This document shows, piece after piece, positions 25,167 to 36,027 of a stretch of DNA of 64,000 bases. The notes beneath the pieces were generated by a model. It was not told the DNA's origin. It searched no databases and saw only the letters and a program-made list of their open reading frames with translations. Source of the stretch: Bacillus marasmi (GTDB taxonomy: Bacteria; Bacillota; Bacilli; Bacillales; Cytobacillaceae); the NCBI RefSeq assembly GCF_902168435.1, contig NZ_LR656179.1, positions 1 through 64,000 on the forward strand. Reading direction: 5' to 3'. Numbering within the stretch: the stretch's first letter is position 1; every line of letters begins with the position of its first letter. A program made the translations under genes and the position numbers.

Positions 25167-25580
25167 TCACATTTCAATAATATATGGCGTATTTTTTTCA
25201 TTTGCACATTTATAGAGACGATCTTTAAAATTTCTCAACTTAATGATTTTCATTGCTTCATCGTAGCTAAAAAAACCAACATCTTCATTTTCACTCGAGG
25301 TCGTCAATGTTCCACCAATCTTTTTTCCTTCAAAAACAAATACGGATACGGACCTGTTCATATCATGCTCTACACCAAGCGTCTTCTTAATGACGATGTC
25401 AATTCCTGATTCTTCCTTTACCTCCCTAATGGCCGCTGCTTTAATCGATTCACCCCGATTAACATAACCACCTGGAAATTCCCATCCCCTCCGAAAGCCT
25501 TTCACTAGTAAAATGTTACTTTGATCATCCAACACATAAACGGCAACTGCTAATGAATGACTAGGAATTTGAATCACCAC
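25167..25580 (-). CDS. Nudix hydrolase of the phosphonate operon
   Basis: A 137-residue Nudix protein with a complete Nudix box (GGYVNRGESIKAAAIREVKEESGI region, residues about 41-63): conserved G, E, REV and EE residues are present. Such enzymes cleave nucleoside diphosphates linked to another group. Last gene of the operon; its GTG start (25580) lies 20 bp inside the preceding gene, implying translational coupling. In this context it could hydrolyse a CDP-linked phosphonate or a by-product, which is inference. An alternative GTG is one codon downstream. Confidence 0.8.
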   Translation of the reverse strand: MVIQIPSHSLAVAVYVLDDQSNILLVKGFRRGWEFPGGYVNRGESIKAAAIREVKEESGIDIVIKKTLGVEHDMNRSVSVFVFEGKKIGGTLTTSSENEDVGFFSYDEAMKIIKLRNFKDRLYKCANEKNTPYIIEM

Positions 25581-27423
25581 CTTTTAATCCATGTAAATAG
25601 ATTGCCAACAGGTCGATGAAACGTCCGATATCCCTATAATCAATATTGCCAATGTTTGCAACTCGAAAAGTATTTTGCTGATCGAGCTTGCCTGGATAAA
25701 TCGTAAAGCCCTTCTTGTAAAAATAATCATGCATCTCATTAAAATTATATTGAGGATGTTCCGGTTCAATGATAGAGGTAATAATTTTCGAATGATTCTT
25801 TACAGGAACTAAATGCGAGAGACCTAACCCAGTTATTCCAGAAATCAGAGTCTCCCATGACCTCGAATAGCGGGCATATCGATTTTCGATTCCTTCCCAA
25901 TTCGTCTCAATAATAGCCTGCTTTAAGGCATACAGTATCTGAACTGGTGGAGTAAAACGCATTTGCTTTGTTTCTTGGAAGGAGCGGAATTGCTCGTAAA
26001 GATTCAAATATAAATTGCGCGGTGTGTTTAGCTTTGTTTTTTCTAAAGCAAACTTATCCGCAATGACAAACGAAACACCTGCCATACCTTGAAGATTCTT
26101 GTTAGAGCTGGCTGCTAAATAGCTAATGTTCATTGCCTTCATATCAATTGGTACAGCAGCAAAAGAGCTCATAGCATCAACAATCATCGTAATTTCATGC
26201 TGCTTACAAAGGGTACCAACCTCATGAAGCTGATTTAATAGTCCCGTTGTTGTTTCGCAATGAATGATGGCAAGATGGGATACTTTCACCTTTTGTGCCA
26301 CAATATACGCTTCAAGCTGCTCTAGATTAATTGGTTGATCAGGAGGGCTCTTAAACTCTAAGTAATTTAATTGATAAATCTCTGCAATTTGACACATTCT
26401 TTTTCCGTATGCACCATTATTTACGATTAACAAAACTTCGTCATCATCGATAACCGAGCTTAGTATCGCTTCAACCGCAGCTGTCCCTGATCCGGCAAAT
26501 AGGACGGTTGTAAATTCTTCGGTATTTCCAACTAGCTTAGTGAGCTCACTTGATATAAACTCCATTACGGTGCCAAAATCTTGTTCCCGCGGACAGATAT
26601 CGGGAACAATCTGGGCATACTTCACTGTATCTGTTGTCGTTGCTGGACCAGGATTCAGTAAAACCTTCCGCTCGACAGGGATTTTTTGTGCCGTGCCTTC
26701 ACGAGCTTTTATTAGAGGAAATACTACCGTTTTTGCCCGTTGCCAATGATGCGGATCATCAACCTCACACCAAACTAAATCGTTCTCTTTCGTAACGATA
26801 ACCTCTTCAATTTTAGCTAGTTGAATCAAGCCCTGCTCATAATCTATTTGCAAATTAGTCTTAAAACGCGGCTCTACAATTCTAGTTAATGCCTGAAAGC
26901 CTTGATAAGACAGCTTAGTAATCCCGACTAATTCGCCAAAAATATCATGTAAATGAGCGGAATTTTTAGACATATTAAGCAGATGATGGGATTCATCTAC
27001 TTCAATGAATACCTCATCACCTGATTGAGTCAATCGACTCGCCAAGATCACATTGTCATGTTCATGCTCTATGAGCGCAGTTAAAGCCTTTTTTTCATAT
27101 ATTAAGTCAGATTCCAGCAATAAGAAATCGTCCTTCACGACATCTTTTAACTGATAGAGTGTGTACATGCTCCCAGAGTCTTCATAATTTGGATTGTGGA
27201 CGCAATGCAGCTGTGGATATTTTTCAGCGAGCGCTTGATAATCCTCCTGCTTATAGCCCGTTCCTAAGTAGATTTTTGTGATTCCTAATTCAAGTAATGT
27301 TAGAATCGAATGTTCGATGATTGGTAAACGATCCAGCAGCAAAAAACCCTTTGGATGATTCCCACTATGCTCGCGAATCCGACTTCCTAGTCCAGCCGCT
27401 AGAATGACTGCTGTGCTAATCAC
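25561..27423 (-). CDS. pntC: Phosphonate cytidylyltransferase-AEP transaminase fusion (PntC-like)
   Basis: A 620-residue two-domain protein. Residues 1-240 are a nucleotidyltransferase with LAAGLGSRIREHSGNHPKGF (NTP binding) and an acidic ESDLIYE metal site. Residues about 255-615 are a class V aminotransferase of the 2-aminoethylphosphonate:pyruvate type, with LLNPGPATTTDTVK and PLP-lysine region AASSNKNLQG. The domain order matches PntC proteins that make 2-aminoethylphosphonate from phosphonoacetaldehyde and activate it as CMP-AEP. It overlaps aepY by 8 bp and the Nudix gene by 20 bp. CMP-AEP would be the donor for adding AEP to a lipid or glycan. Confidence 0.85.
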   Translation of the reverse strand: MISTAVILAAGLGSRIREHSGNHPKGFLLLDRLPIIEHSILTLLELGITKIYLGTGYKQEDYQALAEKYPQLHCVHNPNYEDSGSMYTLYQLKDVVKDDFLLLESDLIYEKKALTALIEHEHDNVILASRLTQSGDEVFIEVDESHHLLNMSKNSAHLHDIFGELVGITKLSYQGFQALTRIVEPRFKTNLQIDYEQGLIQLAKIEEVIVTKENDLVWCEVDDPHHWQRAKTVVFPLIKAREGTAQKIPVERKVLLNPGPATTTDTVKYAQIVPDICPREQDFGTVMEFISSELTKLVGNTEEFTTVLFAGSGTAAVEAILSSVIDDDEVLLIVNNGAYGKRMCQIAEIYQLNYLEFKSPPDQPINLEQLEAYIVAQKVKVSHLAIIHCETTTGLLNQLHEVGTLCKQHEITMIVDAMSSFAAVPIDMKAMNISYLAASSNKNLQGMAGVSFVIADKFALEKTKLNTPRNLYLNLYEQFRSFQETKQMRFTPPVQILYALKQAIIETNWEGIENRYARYSRSWETLISGITGLGLSHLVPVKNHSKIITSIIEPEHPQYNFNEMHDYFYKKGFTIYPGKLDQQNTFRVANIGNIDYRDIGRFIDLLAIYLHGLKGGDSNS

Positions 27424-28546
27424 GTAAAAACACCTGCAATCTATTTTTAACCTCGTAAGGTTTCATTTTTGGTCTCCCCAAATCATTTTTTGAACCCTTT
27501 GCGATTTTTAAATAAACGAAGGTTAATTGCTTATTCTTTTGCCAGTTGTCAATCGCATCCTTTAATTCATGAAGATTATGTGCATAGATGGAGTTAGGAT
27601 ATCCACAGGCTGCAGCTAGTTCTGTAAATTGAACATTAGCAGACACCGTTTGCTGTCCCCCCGTTGAATCATGGCTTTGATTATCTAATAAAATATGAAG
27701 CAGATTTTCGGGTGCATAAGTGCCGTTTGTTGCTAAATTTCCCATTCTCATTAACAAAGCACCATCCCCATCGATAGCAACAACCGCCTTATCAGGTCTC
27801 GTGAGTGCAAGGCCGAGACCTAACGCACTGACACACCCCATTGAGCCAACCATATATAAGTTATGTTTGGAATCTTCAAGATCATACAGTTCCCGACCTG
27901 TTTTTCCTGTTGTGGCAAGCTGAATAGTATCAGCATTTTTACAAGCATTAATGATGGATAAGGCTTCGTAACGAGTTGGCAGCAAATCATCGTCTTTTTT
28001 TTGATAATGAAGGAGATTTTGCTTTTGAGAAAAAGACCGTTCTTTTAACTCAACGGCAGCAAATGTCGCTTTTTTTACAATAAAGAAAAACGATTGATTG
28101 GCTTCAATGTAGGAATTAGCGTGCGCTAATTGACGCTTAGCCTCGGCAACATCACCTGATAGATATTCCCAGTTTATATTCATAACGGTCAGCATTTCTG
28201 CCGTGATTTGCCCCATTAATTCATGTTGTGGTTCATCCTTGTGGCCAGGTTCGCCTCGCAGACTGACAAAGCCTAATATCGGAATTTGGAATGGATGTGT
28301 GAGTGAGATGAGTGGTGAGGTAGCATTTGTTAAGCCTGAGTTTTGCATTAACACGACTGATTTTTTTCCGCCAAGGCTGGCTCCAGCTGCAATGGCAATC
28401 GCGTCACCTTCATTTGTTGCCATAACATATTCACAATCATTGATGGCAAAATTGATGAGATTTTTTAAATAAGAACACGGGACACCGCTAAAAAAATCAA
28501 AACCTAGTTGTTTTAATTCAAAACCAAATTCTGCTGTTTCAATCAT
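27416..28546 (-). CDS. aepY: Phosphonopyruvate decarboxylase
   Basis: A 376-residue thiamine-diphosphate enzyme that decarboxylates phosphonopyruvate to phosphonoacetaldehyde, the step that makes C-P bond formation irreversible. The N-terminal half has [13 protein letters not shown] and the cofactor-activating Glu in [13 protein letters not shown]; the C-terminal half has the ThDP/Mg motif [14 protein letters not shown]...NILLDN. Its ATG overlaps the aepX stop codon by 4 bp. Confidence 0.9.
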
Positions 28547-30063
28547 CCTTTTTCACCAGCACTTTGGATTTTCTTATAAGTATTAAAATCAAGCCAGGCT
28601 CCCTTCACATATTTTACGTTTACTTGCTCAAGGGAGTGGAGGTAATTAAATAAGTCTAGCATGGTTAGCTCATGGAAATCGTCCCGTTTTGCTAACGCTT
28701 CTAACGCTGCTTTTAACAATACTGAACCTTTATCCGATACCTTCCATAATCCGATAAATTCACCATGAACATCTTCAGCAGTTGCATTTGAAGTCATGTT
28801 AGTAAATTCTACATTTCCGTTGTAAAGCATTTTTGTATAAGGGAGCTTCGTCGAGACAAAGAACTTCCCTGATGTATTTGCATCAATATCAGGATCGACC
28901 ACAATCGTTATTGTACTAGCGTCGTCAAGTAGTTCATTTATTACATATGGTTTATAAACGATATCCCCATTCGAAATAATCGTCGTTTGAGTCAAGCTTT
29001 CTCGAGCTGAAAACAGTGGCGCTAATTCCCCACGAGCTAATGTGTTCTTCTCCATGTTCCCTCGGGGCTCTGAATTTTCTATGCGGACAATATCGCTTAT
29101 CCCTAAACCTTTTAAACTATTTACTTGTTCTAAAACGAGCGGAGCTGCTTCTGGTTTATTTTCGATGATGATGGCAGTTCGATTATTTGCAGCACTATTT
29201 AAATAAATCTTTTCTGCCTGGGCCAGTTCTTCAGCTCCTTGAAGTCGGAAAACCTCTTCGAGCGGAGTGACATTTTTCTCAACGTTCATTAAGCTTTCTT
29301 CTTGATAAATTTGAGAAGCAGTTTGCTTGATCGCCTTGATGGAAGCTCGCAAGTTGTGATTAGCCCAAATACATAGACCAACCCCGATTTCTCGGAAACG
29401 GTCCGTTGGCACCGAATAGTATTTAGTTGGGACGATGACGACCGGTAACCTTCCCGCCCATTCCTTCATAAACGCTTCAATTTCAGTAAAATCAGCCCGT
29501 TTGCTATGCATGAGAATCGCATCTGTTCCTGCCTGACGATATGCCTCAGCTCTTTTTAACGCTTCGCTAAGTCCCCAACCAGCAATAAACGCCTCAACCC
29601 TCGATACCACGACAAAATCATCATCTGTTTGGCTATCCTTCATCGCTTTAATCTTCCCGGAAAATTCATCGATATCAGCTAATGGCTGGGCTTCACCTTT
29701 GATGAATGAATTGGTTTTCGGAAAAATTTTATCCTCAATACAGACGCCGCCAATGCTGCGCTGTTCAAGTTTTTTGACTAATCTACGAGCATTATTGAAG
29801 TTGCCATAGCCCGTATCCCCATCGAGTAAAATTGGAATCGATGTCGCATCACTCATAAACTCTAAAACATCCAATACTTGAGTCCAAGATGCCTCGTTAT
29901 TATCGCGAACACCCATGCTTGCCGAAATCGATAAGCCGCTCCCCCAAATGCCTTTGAAGCCAGCCTCCTCAACGATTTTTGCACTTAGAGCATTATGTGC
30001 TTCCATAATAAACTCAAGCGGTTTATTTGTAATTAAGTTTCTTAGTTGTGTCGTTTTCTTCAT
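28543..30063 (-). CDS. aepX: Phosphoenolpyruvate mutase with C-terminal nucleotidyltransferase-like domain
   Basis: A 506-residue protein. Residues 1-290 form a PEP mutase TIM barrel: LDGDTGYGN binds Mg-PEP and [10 protein letters not shown] is the signature EDKxFPKxNS loop separating mutases from isocitrate-lyase-like relatives. It rearranges PEP to phosphonopyruvate, the entry step of phosphonate biosynthesis. Residues about 300-500 resemble a sugar-nucleotide transferase fold (IISNGDIVY, then [16 protein letters not shown]), but the usual GxGxR NTP-binding loop is absent, so this domain is probably inactive or structural. It follows the Mur ligase gene by 24 bp and overlaps aepY by 4 bp. 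Confidence 0.9.
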
Positions 30064-30087
30064 GTTTACGCTCCTTGCTGTTTTTCA

Positions 30088-31503
30088 CTAGTCCTCATTT
30101 TTGATGAGCTTATTTCGAAGCTCCTGAAAGCTTGGTTTTTTCATAACGCGATGGGTAATTTTTAATAGAATATTAGTATCTGGCTCAAGATGAGCTTGAA
30201 TTACTTGATAAATCTCCTCACCTGTTTCGCAAAAATGAAGCTGCTCCGCCGGATACCCATGTTTAAGAGCTGATTCCCCAATCACCTTTGCTTTTTCACC
30301 AACAATGACCAACAAATCAACCTCAGCTTCTGCAGCACGTTTGCCCATTTCACTGTATTGTTCAAAGGCATGGGTGCCAGTTCCAAGCTGCGGCATATAG
30401 CCTAACAAGGCAATCGATTTCTTTCCGATTGACACATTTTTTAACACTTGAAGCGCGGAATCCATCGATAACGGGGCCGAGTTCCATGTATCATCAATGA
30501 TCGTAGAGCCGTTTGTACCATGATTAAATTCTAGATGCGACTTTACCTGCTTAAAAGAGGCCAGCCTTGTTATCGCAGTTGGTATTGAAATTCCGACAAA
30601 TGAAACAGCCGCAATTGCCGCCAGTGCATTATAAACATTGTGCTCACCATAACCCGGGACGAAAGCCTGATATTGCTTGCTTTCATGGGTGAAGGTAAAG
30701 TTCATTCCGCCATTACCGAAATGAGACTCATCAATTCTAAATTGCGCCCTTTGAGTTTTGCCAAAATAAATCACTTTTTTATAAGGACTTGGGTCAAGAA
30801 CCTTTCTAATATTTTCATCATCAGCATTTACAATCAGAACATCGTTTTGCGGATCCATCCCATCAACAATTTCTCCCTTTGCTTTCATATATACCTCGGG
30901 AGTGTCGCAATCAGCCAAATGATGGACACCGATATTTAAGAGAATACGAATTTGCGGTTTAAAGGCACGACAAGCTACCCTTAAATAGCCAGGATAAGCA
31001 ACCGGCATCTCAAACACAGCAACTTCAGTATCCTCCTCGATTCCCGTTACATAGCGAAGATTGACCGACATAGAATTCATACTTTTCCAGGTTGCTTTTA
31101 CCTTGAAATCTTCACTGAGTATTTGCTTCATCATTTCTTTAGTTGTTGTTTTTCCGCAAGTCCCTGTCACACCAATGACCGGAATATCGAACATCCCACG
31201 ATAGTATTCAATGAAATTCCAATATGCTCCTTCTAAATCCTTAGTCTCGATTAGAGTTATCTTACCTCCTAGATTTGTACAAAGCTCAGGCTTATCAGTA
31301 ATAATGGCGATATCTTGATTATTTTTCCAATACTTTCCCCTAATTTTTTCATGATCCATATGGAAAACCAATGTGTGGTCATCGATATCCTTTGCCGTCC
31401 AATCCATTGCGCGCTGTATGATTGGATTACTTGCCAAAGCTGAACTGCGGATAATATGTGGGCCAATTACATTAAGAATTTCGTTAAGACTTAAGCTTTT
31501 CAT
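30088..31503 (-). CDS. MurF-like Mur ligase
   Basis: A 471-residue Mur-ligase-family ATP-dependent amide ligase. P-loop GVTGTCGKTTTKEM, central-domain GEHNVYNALAAIAA, and DDTWNSAPLSM followed by LGYMPQLG...H are all MurF-like. The N-terminal domain is divergent from housekeeping MurF, and the gene sits in a phosphonate operon rather than a cell-wall cluster. Such paralogues are expected to join an amino acid or peptide to a carboxylate. It lies 20 bp after the amidoligase/ATP-grasp gene and 24 bp before aepX. Confidence 0.8.
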   Translation of the reverse strand: MKSLSLNEILNVIGPHIIRSSALASNPIIQRAMDWTAKDIDDHTLVFHMDHEKIRGKYWKNNQDIAIITDKPELCTNLGGKITLIETKDLEGAYWNFIEYYRGMFDIPVIGVTGTCGKTTTKEMMKQILSEDFKVKATWKSMNSMSVNLRYVTGIEEDTEVAVFEMPVAYPGYLRVACRAFKPQIRILLNIGVHHLADCDTPEVYMKAKGEIVDGMDPQNDVLIVNADDENIRKVLDPSPYKKVIYFGKTQRAQFRIDESHFGNGGMNFTFTHESKQYQAFVPGYGEHNVYNALAAIAAVSFVGISIPTAITRLASFKQVKSHLEFNHGTNGSTIIDDTWNSAPLSMDSALQVLKNVSIGKKSIALLGYMPQLGTGTHAFEQYSEMGKRAAEAEVDLLVIVGEKAKVIGESALKHGYPAEQLHFCETGEEIYQVIQAHLEPDTNILLKITHRVMKKPSFQELRNKLIKNED

Positions 31504-31523
31504 GTGACATCACCTCGATGAGT

Positions 31524-34139
31524 TCATACTTTAAAATCTTCTCCCTCATATCCAGCAAGTGAAGCAGCATAATTTAGGAGTCGGATTCCTGCTAAATTTC
31601 TGAGCTGATATGCTCCAATTTGTGAAAACAGATTATCAGGCTTTGAGTTCACCTCAAGGAGCTTGATGGAATTATATTGATCTATACATAAATCCACAGC
31701 CATCTCACCAAAGGTCCCGACGTTATTTTCAATAGTTGTCACAATACTCCTGGCAATATTTCCAAGCTTTTGGGTGATACTGCGTCGTTCAGACGGATCT
31801 TCATATAGGAGCTTTAACACTTTACTTAAGCGCAAATTAATTTCTGTATCTTCCGTCATGACATCCTCGGCTGTTAAGCGAGTTACCATGCCCGTTCTAA
31901 ACCATTTATGCTGACCGTTCTTCTGCATATAAACACGTATTTCTAAATTCTTTCCTCTGTATTGCTTTCTCCTGATTCCTTCCTGAATGAGGTAAGTCTG
32001 TTCCTTCATAAGTGGGGCAACAAAAGATAGTAATTGCTCGTTTGTTTGCAGGTGATAGGTCTTTTTTTCTTTTATATTTAAAAGAAATATACCGGTTGGG
32101 CGTCTTATCACACGCAGAATTCCTTTTCCAAGTGAACCACCGACAGGCTTCAAATAAATTTCCCCATATTCATTGAGCTTCTCAATCAAATCGCCCGTAT
32201 CTTGAAGTAGACAAGCATCAGGTAATATTTTTTCATGCTTCTCATAAAGTAACTTATGTGTTTCCCATTTGTTGCGGGTAAGAATGGATAACTTAGTTGG
32301 ATTAATGAAGGGAATATGATACACATGCTGAAGCTTAGCTCGAATCCGATCAATAATCGGGTCTTTTTTTCCAACTACTAATCGATCATAAATAACTGCT
32401 GGAAACGGGAAAATACCTTGACCTTTGCTTGTTTCCCCTTTAATAATTTGTTGATTCCAGTCGATATCCTTCGGTTCAAATACATACACGAGCATTTGTT
32501 TTTCAGTTGCTAATCTTTCGATATGGTGAAAATATGTTGTTTGCCGATCGAATGGTCTTTGGGCAAGAATGCCAATAATTGGGCCGAGCGTAATTACGCC
32601 GTTGACCAAGGAAATTTTCGGATTCCAGTCCATTGGTAGCAGCAGACTTTCCTTAAGTGCTTTCGAGAGCTGAATGATATTTGAATTACGAAATGTGAAG
32701 GGATATGGGCGGATGGTTGCCTCGGTGATTCGATTTCCAGCACAAATATATGTTGTTGATCCTTCAGTCAAATCGTGTTTTAATCTTATTTTTTTCGGTA
32801 TGAGAATGACCTTGCCTCGGTCAAAGCTTTGTTTAGTAATAGAAAGCCCCCAGTTGATACGAAAGTCACTCTTTTCTGAGTATGGATATCCATTTTCAAT
32901 TGAATCAAACAGAAACAATAGATTCTCTTCATATTCAGGGTAGCTAGATGTATTTTGTAATTGCTTTTTAATTTCAGGCCACAATTGTTTTAAGATTACA
33001 TGATTGCTATTATAATAGGCGCGTTGAATGATGGGGTTCTCCAAAAAATCCCCCGTTAATTCGTGATGATGAAGAGCAACGAGTTTTGCAAGACTTAGCA
33101 CTCCTAACGCTAATTTCGGGTCAATGATCCACGAACTTAAGCCAATGTACTCGAATCCATATGGCTTTAAACGATAGCGTCCTAAGCCACCATGATTGGT
33201 CCTTCTTCTTTTTTTGGCAGTTTGCGGATCTTCTATCAATGAGAATGGAATGGCTACAAATTGATCAAATGCTCTAAGGATAGATAATGTAATAGGCATA
33301 CCTATATGGATATGCCCTCCGCATTGATAACCTGAAAAGGGCATACTACCTGACCTAAATTCCACATTTTCATAAGGTACTATCTCTGATGCCTGATGGA
33401 TGATTTGTTTAATGTGCTGAAATAGCTCTTGTGGTGTATTTGCTTTTTCCGGACGAATTTCTACCAGTGCATAATCACCACTGTCCTGTTCGATTTGCCG
33501 TTCGTCACAGCCAACTTCACCACCTGGTGAAAAGAAGGTTGATGCTGGAAGTAGGTCAGCATCACAGCTCAGCATAAACTCTATATCCGCCCCCATTGTA
33601 AATGAACCCTTTGGCACAGTAGTGGCTTCCGTATAGGTGGAATTTGCCCTGTTAATATCAGTTACAATGATTGATTCATTCTCTAACAGGCCAAGCTTAA
33701 CGAACCCATTATTTAATCCGGTAACATAAAGTGCTCGTATCGCGACAGCTAGCCACTCCTCCGGTATAGTGTCTATTTCGCAAGCTACCCATTTCCAGCC
33801 AAATGCTTTAGTACGGATTGGTACTTCATTAAAAACGACTTCCTGACCTACGGCGATATAAACACCTTTTACGGTTAATCCTTCAATTTCTAACATGTAT
33901 TCCGTTGAAATGGCATACATTTTGGTAAAAAAATCAGCTTCTGTATTTGCAATCTGTTCATTTGTGTTAATGATGATTAAATCTTTTCCATTGTGATGAC
34001 CATACTTCCTGCCAACAATCGGATACTTACACGTTTTTGGATCAATTAATTCTAAACAAGGTACATTATTCATATGAAGGATTTGTAGCATTAGTTCTTT
34101 GTCTGTCACCATACAGAATCGCTTTCCCGTCAATTCCAT
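31524..34139 (-). CDS. Amidoligase (COOH-NH2 ligase type 2-like) fused to YheC/YheD-type ATP-grasp
   Basis: An 871-residue protein with at least three parts. Residues 1-175 form an unassigned N-terminal domain. Residues about 180-500 resemble the glutamine-synthetase-fold COOH-NH2 ligases: GADIEFML, FFSPGGEVGCDERQIEQD, LVEIRPEKANTP and GYQCGGHIHIG. Residues about 560-865 are an ATP-grasp domain of the YheC/YheD spore-coat-associated family: LSILTRNKWETHKLL, IYLKPVGGSLGKGI, GEMAVDLCID, LLEVNSKPDN. Both halves are predicted ATP-dependent peptide-bond makers. The ATG at 34139 follows GGGGG by 8 bp; a TTG five codons earlier lies within the SD. First gene of the operon. Confidence 0.75.
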   Translation of the reverse strand: MELTGKRFCMVTDKELMLQILHMNNVPCLELIDPKTCKYPIVGRKYGHHNGKDLIIINTNEQIANTEADFFTKMYAISTEYMLEIEGLTVKGVYIAVGQEVVFNEVPIRTKAFGWKWVACEIDTIPEEWLAVAIRALYVTGLNNGFVKLGLLENESIIVTDINRANSTYTEATTVPKGSFTMGADIEFMLSCDADLLPASTFFSPGGEVGCDERQIEQDSGDYALVEIRPEKANTPQELFQHIKQIIHQASEIVPYENVEFRSGSMPFSGYQCGGHIHIGMPITLSILRAFDQFVAIPFSLIEDPQTAKKRRRTNHGGLGRYRLKPYGFEYIGLSSWIIDPKLALGVLSLAKLVALHHHELTGDFLENPIIQRAYYNSNHVILKQLWPEIKKQLQNTSSYPEYEENLLFLFDSIENGYPYSEKSDFRINWGLSITKQSFDRGKVILIPKKIRLKHDLTEGSTTYICAGNRITEATIRPYPFTFRNSNIIQLSKALKESLLLPMDWNPKISLVNGVITLGPIIGILAQRPFDRQTTYFHHIERLATEKQMLVYVFEPKDIDWNQQIIKGETSKGQGIFPFPAVIYDRLVVGKKDPIIDRIRAKLQHVYHIPFINPTKLSILTRNKWETHKLLYEKHEKILPDACLLQDTGDLIEKLNEYGEIYLKPVGGSLGKGILRVIRRPTGIFLLNIKEKKTYHLQTNEQLLSFVAPLMKEQTYLIQEGIRRKQYRGKNLEIRVYMQKNGQHKWFRTGMVTRLTAEDVMTEDTEINLRLSKVLKLLYEDPSERRSITQKLGNIARSIVTTIENNVGTFGEMAVDLCIDQYNSIKLLEVNSKPDNLFSQIGAYQLRNLAGIRLLNYAASLAGYEGEDFKV

Positions 34140-34353
34140 ATGTAAAACCCCCAATACTTTAGAAAATCACATGCTGCATTTTCTAGTTTTTTTCATTAAA
34201 CCGGTTAATTACCAATATATTATGAAAACGCTAAGATGTTTCTGGATAGTTTTTGCAGAAACAAATAAAAAGTGCTCATTTACTGAAACACTTTTAAAAT
34301 ACTTGCATTTATATTAGAAACACTCCCTTAAACGTTAATGGAGGCTGATTTAG

Positions 34354-35037
34354 ATGACAATTCCTTATATTGAACAAACCTTTATAAAATACCATATGGG
34401 TAAGGGCTATATTTGCGCACTTGTCGACGCCCTGCACGCTGCCCCCCCAGCTGCAGATAAATATACTGACAAAATCGTCGAGAAATTAATTAAAGAAATT
34501 GGCTGTGCCGGAATAATCAGTACGGTTTCGAGGTTATATTGCGATTTAAACCGTGCGCCAACTAGGGAAAATCAAGCTGGGATTACAGAATACAGAAAGG
34601 CAATTCACGACATATTAGATTATTTGCAAATCGTAGATTTCGCTAAGCACACGCTTCAGACTCCATTTTTACATCTTTCCTTTCACGGTATGAAGGATGC
34701 AAACTATGGTCCTTTTGCAATTGAAATCGGTACCCAAAGAGGTAAATCCTGTTCGCGGGAGGTGCGAAAATGGTTTGAAAAGAAATTGAAAAGTACTTTT
34801 TCAAATATTTCTCCAGAGATGAATATCGTTTTTGATAGAAAATTTAAAGGGAATGAATCGATTGTTTCCCATCGCTTCGGAGATACCGATCATTACTCAG
34901 GTTACGGCGCAAATTTTCACACGTTCCAAATCGAGCTATCTCGAACATTACGTGTGAAGTACTTGAAAGAGACAGTAAAAATTTTCGCTGGAATTATCGC
35001 TGAATTCCAGGATACCTTTGTTCACCCAGCTAGTTGA
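34354..35037 (+). CDS. N-formylglutamate amidohydrolase-like protein
   Basis: A 227-residue protein. HAAPPAADKYTD, RLYCDLNRAP and HLSFHGM match in order the zinc-ligand and substrate-binding motifs of the N-formylglutamate amidohydrolase family (M14-related zinc hydrolases), and QIELSRTLR is the typical late motif. It would hydrolyse an amide next to a carboxylate. It is transcribed away from the phosphonate/amidoligase operon across a 214-bp shared promoter region, suggesting it trims or releases that system's product. Start ATG with GGAGG upstream. Family call moderate; function inferred. Confidence 0.6.
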   Translation: MTIPYIEQTFIKYHMGKGYICALVDALHAAPPAADKYTDKIVEKLIKEIGCAGIISTVSRLYCDLNRAPTRENQAGITEYRKAIHDILDYLQIVDFAKHTLQTPFLHLSFHGMKDANYGPFAIEIGTQRGKSCSREVRKWFEKKLKSTFSNISPEMNIVFDRKFKGNESIVSHRFGDTDHYSGYGANFHTFQIELSRTLRVKYLKETVKIFAGIIAEFQDTFVHPAS

Positions 35038-35051
35038 TGCTTGTGCTTGTA

Positions 35052-35930
35052 CTATATCTCGAGTAAATCATGAACATATTTTGGCAAGACAAACGACGCT
35101 AAAAACATTTCAGGGCAAATGTATTTCGTATCACTATAATGTAATTTGCTTAAATTGGCCTGTAGCGGATCATACCTCTTTGAGGCAAGTGTAAAGCTCC
35201 ATAAACCACATGGATACAAAGGAATCGACATTAAGTAGGTTCGAACGATTGGAAAATGAGTACGTAATTGCTTCACTGTTTTTTTTAGTATTGATTGATT
35301 ATAAAACGGTGAACCCGATTGAAAGACCACCACTCCATCATCGGACAATGCATTATACACATACTGATAAAACTCTGGTTCAAACAGTTTTTTCCCTGGA
35401 CCTACTGGGTCTGGTCGATCAATCATTAACACATCATACTCCCCTTGTTGCTCTTGAATCCATTCAAAGCCGTCCCGATGAAAGATTTGAAAACGCTGAT
35501 CCTGTTCGTAAACCTCTGCTGGTGTCAGCCATTTCTGACATAGCTCGGTTACCTGCGGATCAATTTCAATTACATGTATCTTTTCTATTTCAGCATATTT
35601 CATTGCTTCGCGGGCGTTGCCACAATCTCCTCCCCCAATCATTGCCACCTTTTTAGGGTTATGGTGGGTGACAATCGGAATGTGACTAATCATTTCATTA
35701 TAGATAAAACCCTCGCCCGTTGAGATTTGGGGAATGCCATCTAGTACGAGCATTTTTCCAAACGCCACACTGTCAACTATGCTAATTTGCTGGTATTCAG
35801 ATTGCTTATAATCCAATAACTTCTTAATTTTATAGTTTATTCTCAGCTTTGCATTACTAACATAATTCGAAATCCACCACACACCCTTATCATCCTGCTT
35901 AAAGCCTGACATTGATTTCTTGTCTGCCAC
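35052..35930 (-). CDS. Spermidine synthase-like aminopropyltransferase homologue
   Basis: A 292-residue protein of the SpeE fold: N-terminal beta domain (VDSVAFGKMLVLDGIPQ), decarboxy-SAM site GGGDCGNAREAMKY, acidic EIDP, and MIDRPDPVGPGKKLF where both Asp of the catalytic D-x-x-D are kept. Yet the usual DEF-x-YHEM is here GEGFIYNEM, and the normally invariant second Gly of GGGDGG is Cys, so substrate preference may differ from putrescine. The GTG start at 35930 is supported by GGAGGTG 8 bp upstream. It is convergent with the hydrolase gene, 14 bp apart. The housekeeping speE may be elsewhere. Confidence 0.75.
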   Translation of the reverse strand: MADKKSMSGFKQDDKGVWWISNYVSNAKLRINYKIKKLLDYKQSEYQQISIVDSVAFGKMLVLDGIPQISTGEGFIYNEMISHIPIVTHHNPKKVAMIGGGDCGNAREAMKYAEIEKIHVIEIDPQVTELCQKWLTPAEVYEQDQRFQIFHRDGFEWIQEQQGEYDVLMIDRPDPVGPGKKLFEPEFYQYVYNALSDDGVVVFQSGSPFYNQSILKKTVKQLRTHFPIVRTYLMSIPLYPCGLWSFTLASKRYDPLQANLSKLHYSDTKYICPEMFLASFVLPKYVHDLLEI

Positions 35931-36027
35931 TCTCAACACCTCCTTACAAATACATAACTCTCCTTATATAAACTATGTAACAATAACAAATCTCGTCCTA
36001 TGGTAAACGCACAATTTGTCCTTTTAC

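Follow-up and report, generated by a model that had tools for sequence, protein, structure and literature searches.

Genomic Organization of the Cassette

The 64,000-nt stretch of Bacillus marasmi DNA analyzed here (the window; assembly GCF_902168435.1, contig NZ_LR656179.1, positions 1–64,000, forward strand) carries genes for phosphonate synthesis and amide ligation, which, in the explanation favored below, belong to a biosynthetic cassette of eight genes maintained as one unit (Table 1). Six of the eight form a predicted operon on the reverse strand, in the order of a glutamine synthetase (GS)-fold amidoligase/ATP-grasp fusion, a Mur ligase, a phosphoenolpyruvate (PEP) mutase, a phosphonopyruvate decarboxylase, a fusion of a 2-aminoethylphosphonate (AEP) cytidylyltransferase with an AEP transaminase (PntC-AEPT), and a Nudix hydrolase, with gaps of 20 and 24 bp followed by overlaps of 4, 8 and 20 bp. 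The original prediction for this locus had described these six reading frames, and their strand, order, domain calls and spacing were all confirmed. Its six-gene extent was two genes short, as an N-formylglutamate amidohydrolase-like (FGase-like) gene and a spermidine-synthase-like (SpeE-like) gene also belong to the conserved unit. These missed genes resemble an N-acyl hydrolase and an aminopropyltransferase, and the likely chemistry of the locus therefore changes.

Table 1. Features of the phosphonate–ligase cassette in the window.
Feature	Position	Strand	Remarks
GS-fold amidoligase (PF14395) fused to YheC/D-type ATP-grasp ligase (PF14398), 871 aa	31524..34139	-	ATG start at 34139
MurF-like Mur ligase, 471 aa, N-terminal domain diverged	30088..31503	-	Mur_ligase_M; TIGR01143 below cut-off
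PEP mutase, EDK-X5-NS motif, C-terminal putative degenerate nucleotidyltransferase-like domain	28543..30063	-	PEP_mutase; TIGR02320
Phosphonopyruvate decarboxylase	27416..28546	-	Thiamine pyrophosphate (TPP)-enzyme domains; TIGR03297
AEP cytidylyltransferase (PntC) fused to AEP transaminase	25561..27423	-	NTP_transf_3 + Aminotran_5; TIGR03301; architecture as in T. denticola Tde1415 (PDB 6pd1/6pd2)
Nudix hydrolase, Nudix box intact	25167..25580	-	NUDIX
FGase-like gene, divergent from operon	34354..35037	+	PF05013
SpeE-like aminopropyltransferase paralogue, active-site motifs altered	35052..35939	-	PRK00811, TIGR00417
CATAATATA, sigma-K/E-like -10 element	34216..34224	-	77–85 nt ahead of the fusion-gene start codon

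Synthesis of AEP and CMP-AEP

The middle genes had been predicted to make AEP and then to activate it as CMP-AEP, and this claim held. The PEP mutase, in which the EDK-X5-NS motif is present, passes the NCBIfam cut-off of TIGR02320, the decarboxylase scores 420 bits against a TIGR03297 cut-off of 312.5, and the transaminase half of the fusion passes the NCBIfam cut-off of TIGR03301. The PntC-AEPT protein is a full-length match to PDB 6pd1 (E 7.6e-170), and an ungapped alignment to this structure shows that Glu104 and Glu196 are both kept. Entries 6PD1 and 6PD2 represent the characterized Tde1415 of Treponema denticola, in which these two glutamates are described as lying near the AEP amine (PMC6697681). 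Synthesis of AEP and CMP-AEP by the predicted enzymes is, by these comparisons, well supported, and of the steps CMP-AEP formation has the firmest basis.

The C-terminal domain of the PEP mutase is probably a degenerate nucleotidyltransferase domain. A single profile comparison with the cytidylyltransferase domain gave a probability of 86.5% and an E value of 4.6e-6, and the glycine-rich start of the cytidylyltransferase domain is missing. A structure model of the domain had a mean predicted local distance difference test (pLDDT) of 82, with helices and strands alternating.

Ligases and Accessory Enzymes

The fusion protein contains both PF14395 (299.9 bits) and PF14398 (166.3 bits against a gathering score of 26.8), and its ATP-grasp half thus belongs to the same Pfam family as YheC and YheD of B. 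subtilis; unlike them, it shares one protein with a GS-fold amidoligase and is linked to phosphonate genes. Both family models and solved structures place the Mur protein nearest to MurF, and it shares the Mur ligase core and P-loop with MurF and cyanophycin synthetase. It differs from these enzymes in scoring below the murF cut-off (TIGR01143, 235.5 bits against 288.6), in having a diverged N-terminal domain, and in that the ATP-grasp domain lies on a separate protein. Sequence searches of the PDB gave no useful relative for the fusion, the PEP-mutase C-terminal domain or the FGase-like protein.

The SpeE-like protein passes the spermidine synthase cut-offs (PRK00811, 303.4 against 260; TIGR00417, 258 against 249.55), and all 16 aligned cassette copies carry the motifs YNE, GGGD(C/S)G and DRPDP. 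The motifs are instead YHE, GGGDG and DST(D/E)P in 1iy9 and 1inl (two shown of 23 solved relatives) as well as in the second SpeE copy of the genome, the one further relative there, which is 38% identical to the cassette copy. Since the active-site motifs are altered, a changed acceptor may be supposed, and the cassette draws attention to an altered branch among the spermidine-synthase-like enzymes. The FGase-like protein matches PF05013 with 50.2 bits (gathering score 28.9) and has no NCBIfam match. The Nudix box was called intact by the motif that we take to define it.

A role as a defense system was considered and rejected, as PADLOC-DB gave only generic partial matches (DndA and SspA to the class-V aminotransferase part, PDC-S07 to the Nudix protein, and mads_2 to the SpeE-like part) and no defense-specific gene set.

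Conservation across Genomes

Among 193 genomes of the family searched with the fusion protein, 187 had a match at E <= 1e-20; the whole protein was found in 10 of the 193 (split over two contigs in genome G015; G and L numbers denote genomes and loci), and the remaining matches, among those listed, covered the ATP-grasp half only. The first 450 residues of the fusion were searched at E <= 1e-15 in order, class and phylum samples, which overlap. Matches were found in 19 of 397 order genomes (12 strong, E below 1e-100), in 202 of 398 class genomes (six strong) and in 36 of 299 phylum genomes, where the strong match was the window's own and one distant relative of 940 aa was found at 34%. Together, 24 distinct genomes had a strong full-length fusion match, including as named carriers Bacillus sp. 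DNRA2 and Brevibacillus sp. SYP-B805, together with two assemblies of uncultured Bacillus that are both cut short.

The original prediction would have been refuted if the ligase genes had no conserved association with AEP genes elsewhere; the association held, as the ligase and AEP genes stand beside the fusion gene in identical order in 18 of the 24 genomes (in one, split over two contigs). Two further genomes (G067 and G006) have cassette loci interrupted by contig ends, and one (G030) has remnants of the cassette in which neither PEP mutase nor decarboxylase was found. In the remaining three (G500, G666 and G712), the 19–20 kb around the fusion gene contained no match to AEP, FGase-like or SpeE-like genes, and two of these genomes have a Mur gene nearby, one adjacent and one divergent; the AEP genes thus look as if added onto a ligase core. 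The G030 locus (L035, 7462–14521) has the appearance of a decaying copy, with fusion, FGase-like and SpeE-like matches each in one frame and the Mur and PntC-AEPT matches in pieces. In genome G014, the Mur match is split across two frames (L033, 8146–9556); assembly errors are likely, because rpoB of the same genome also contains internal stops.

In the 21 cassette-type loci (the 18 plus G030, G067 and G006), the FGase-like gene lies divergently ahead of the fusion gene without exception, and the SpeE-like gene follows it in 19, being absent from G655 and G650. The PEP mutases of these two loci (L138 and L139, respectively) also have no C-terminal degenerate domain, and, as the two genomes group together in the 18-genome rpoB tree, both absences may go back to one event. 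At the SpeE-like position of the G650 locus (L139, 2485–3792), an open reading frame with a methyltransferase-like stretch, recognized by eye, converges tail to tail on the FGase-like gene.

The flanks were compared in 20 loci, of which 19 are distinct (L045 and L138 are one place). No ninth family outside the eight was present in more than five of the 20, and a few flanking families were common to distant genera. Since the order recurs in several families with largely different flanking genes, the association is more than chance. The distribution among spore-forming bacteria is patchy. A plasmid- or phage-borne unit was rejected, as at least 80% coverage of the fusion was reached in none of nine matching plasmid records and not in the one matching phage record.

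Co-variation, Transfer and Selection

Pairwise distances were correlated over 18 genomes (fewer for some proteins), with the broken copies of one genome dropped and the PEP mutase taken without its C-terminal part. The correlations were 0.84–0.96 among cassette proteins and 0.57–0.82 with rpoB. In G339, a member of another family, rpoB is 82.8% identical to that of the window's genome, yet the fusion protein is 65% identical, while in G008 and G163, of the same family as the window, rpoB is 93% and the fusion protein 51–52% identical. This mismatch suggests horizontal transfer of the unit, with old duplications and losses as the alternative. The ratio of nonsynonymous to synonymous substitution rates (dN/dS) was below 0.26 for every cassette gene, including the PEP-mutase C-terminal domain, and, judged by this ratio, the cassette genes are under purifying selection in the four pairs tested.

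Upstream Element and Relation to Sporulation

The pattern CATANNATA was found 70–130 nt before the fusion-gene start in nine of 18 cassettes, compared with one of the 68 upstream regions of other genes that served as controls from these loci; these counts omit L069–L071, which are close to L068, and concern the strongest of seven patterns tried. The corresponding Fisher p of 9.5e-7 is too good, as the pattern was settled on only once the regions had been inspected, and the cassettes are related to one another. The sigma-K pattern was enriched upstream (z 6.7 against shuffles, reached by none of 200), given the sigma-K/E consensus as we take it to be. The sigma-F, sigma-G and sigma-H patterns were not enriched upstream, and the housekeeping sigma-A pattern was rejected (z -2.5). 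On the divergent FGase side, the sigma-K signal was weaker (z 4.15). A TGCATT-like element recurs by eye on this side of the divergent region (34139–34354).

In B. subtilis, yheC and yheD are described as part of the sigma-E/SpoIIID program, and YheD as forming a shell around the spore, with its function undetermined (PMC517825, PMC7911427). A location of the cassette product on the spore is plausible. The spore or cell surface location proposed originally gained only indirect support, from the kinship with YheC/D and from the sigma-K/E-like -10 element.

Comparison with Known Systems

The Pnt clusters represented by T. denticola Tde1415 resemble the cassette in CMP-AEP synthesis, as they are described as combining a PEP mutase, a decarboxylase and a cytidylyltransferase-transaminase fusion (PMC6697681). 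According to the same paper, many PEP mutases carry a fused nucleotidyltransferase-type domain, as is the case here, where the domain appears degenerate. Unlike the Pnt clusters, the cassette has no LicD or glycosyltransferase among its conserved genes, and it has three amide ligase domains together with Nudix, FGase-like and SpeE-like enzymes.

The argolaphos cluster of Streptomyces monomycini is reported to share with the cassette a PEP mutase, a decarboxylase, a nucleotidyltransferase, an ATP-grasp ligase and a Nudix protein, and its authors proposed, as a proposal only, that a CMP-aminophosphonate serves as substrate for peptide bonds (PMC8976061). It differs in its aminomethylphosphonate head group, made via other enzymes, and in its GNAT-type ligases and major facilitator superfamily exporter, and the lines examined of its gene table AlpA–AlpP name neither a Mur nor a GS-fold ligase (PMC8976061). 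In the phosphonoalamide clusters of Streptomyces and Bacillus, two ATP-grasp ligases couple a phosphonate to amino acids, as was shown for Streptomyces; the head group is instead phosphonoalanine, and the text contains neither of the terms cytidylyl and nucleotidyl (PMC11867202). No description of such an eight-gene cassette was found among the open-licence papers listed by literature searches.

Possible Use of CMP-AEP

In the proposed pathway, PEP would be converted to phosphonopyruvate by the PEP mutase, to phosphonoacetaldehyde by the decarboxylase and to AEP by the transaminase half, after which the PntC half would join AEP to CMP; these steps are supported by homology. CMP-AEP, and not free AEP, may then be the amine substrate of the ligases, so that the Mur-type enzyme and the GS/ATP-grasp double ligase would couple it to carboxyl compounds, either amino acids or a short peptide, the nucleotide serving as a handle, like UDP for ordinary Mur ligases. 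The SpeE-like paralogue might supply or add an aminopropyl group with a non-standard acceptor, the FGase-like enzyme might take off an N-acyl group, and the Nudix enzyme might cleave the CMP–phosphonate bond and free the product. Expression would take place in the mother cell during sporulation, and the product may reach the spore surface.

The remark in the original prediction that no AEP transferase is visible stands for the cassette: no CMP-AEP transferase was found among its conserved genes, and LicD is present in one of 17 carrier genomes (17 of the 18 carriers, G015 being left out), other transferase families not having been searched. Use of CMP-AEP as a ligase substrate, followed by Nudix release, is favored because of this missing transferase, the rarity of LicD and the similar proposal of the argolaphos authors. 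An eight-gene cassette combining these two features with mother-cell expression is the explanation that we tentatively prefer, as a good possibility that falls short of being probable. As no transferase accompanies the three ligase domains and the Nudix enzyme in their fixed order, the cassette would be a small, testable system where CMP-AEP may serve as a ligase substrate rather than a donor. A bolder version, in which CMP-AEP is a sugar-free counterpart of UDP-MurNAc and a ligase-built peptide bearing a new aminopropylated amine arises in the mother cell and is set free onto the spore surface by the Nudix enzyme, would make the product an undescribed phosphonate-polyamine peptide of spores; this version is speculative and doubtful.

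Several points weigh against the preferred explanation. Acceptance of CMP-AEP by the ligases is something we infer, and the argolaphos counterpart is itself a proposal. The Nudix protein is over the cut-off of no specific NCBIfam model, the SpeE-like gene is missing from two loci, and the PEP mutase correlates with rpoB (0.82) nearly as well as with the cassette proteins (0.85–0.89). As for mother-cell expression, the promoter pattern was picked after inspecting these very upstream regions, whose cassettes are not independent; CATANNATA is missing from the other nine of 18 cassettes; the sigma-E pattern was not enriched upstream; and, with the -35 included, the window's best sigma-K site differs from the CATAATATA element, because no AC lies at the usual -35 distance from it. 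The presence of SpoIIID was rejected as a test of a spore role, being uninformative: it occurs in all 12 fusion-bearing order genomes, but also in 379 of 397 overall.

A possible, if rather less likely, explanation is classical phosphonyl tailoring, in which the ligases make a surface polymer that bears peptides, and AEP is added to it from CMP-AEP by a phosphotransferase encoded elsewhere, on the lines proposed for Pnt clusters. Clusters with PntC are thought to decorate glycans or lipids (PMC6697681), and YheC/D and Mur ligases suggest envelope work, but the conserved genes and the LicD count provide no such transferase, CDP-alcohol-type transferases not having been searched. It is unlikely that the ligases build a diffusible phosphonopeptide, an antibiotic or a signal, after the manner of argolaphos or the phosphonoalamides. 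Those clusters are reported to use a PEP mutase and ATP-grasp ligases, both of which are present in the cassette, and argolaphos also has a nucleotidyltransferase and a Nudix protein; however, no exporter-, regulator- or resistance-like gene is among the conserved eight, and a mother-cell-type promoter would be odd for such a product.

A storage polymer of phosphorus and nitrogen seems improbable. CphA combines ATP-grasp and Mur ligase domains, and the Mur protein gives weak matches to cyanophycin synthetase models, but MurF remains its closest family, no recognized depolymerase is encoded among the eight genes, and CMP activation would be left unexplained. That the neighboring genes are functionally unrelated is hardly credible: the three genomes with a fusion gene and no adjacent AEP genes would fit, but the order kept in 18 of 24 fusion genomes, the differing flanks and the co-variation of the genes speak against it.

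Relatives of the Ligase Pair

The cassette may offer a chemical role for the ATP-grasp family of YheC/D. Three loci (L143, L144 and L145) each have a stand-alone GS-fold amidoligase of the PF14395 type in the midst of three or four ATP-grasp matches of the YheC/D type. With GS relatives matched in about half of the class genomes (202 of 398), the pairing of GS amidoligase and ATP-grasp ligase may be a wider theme.

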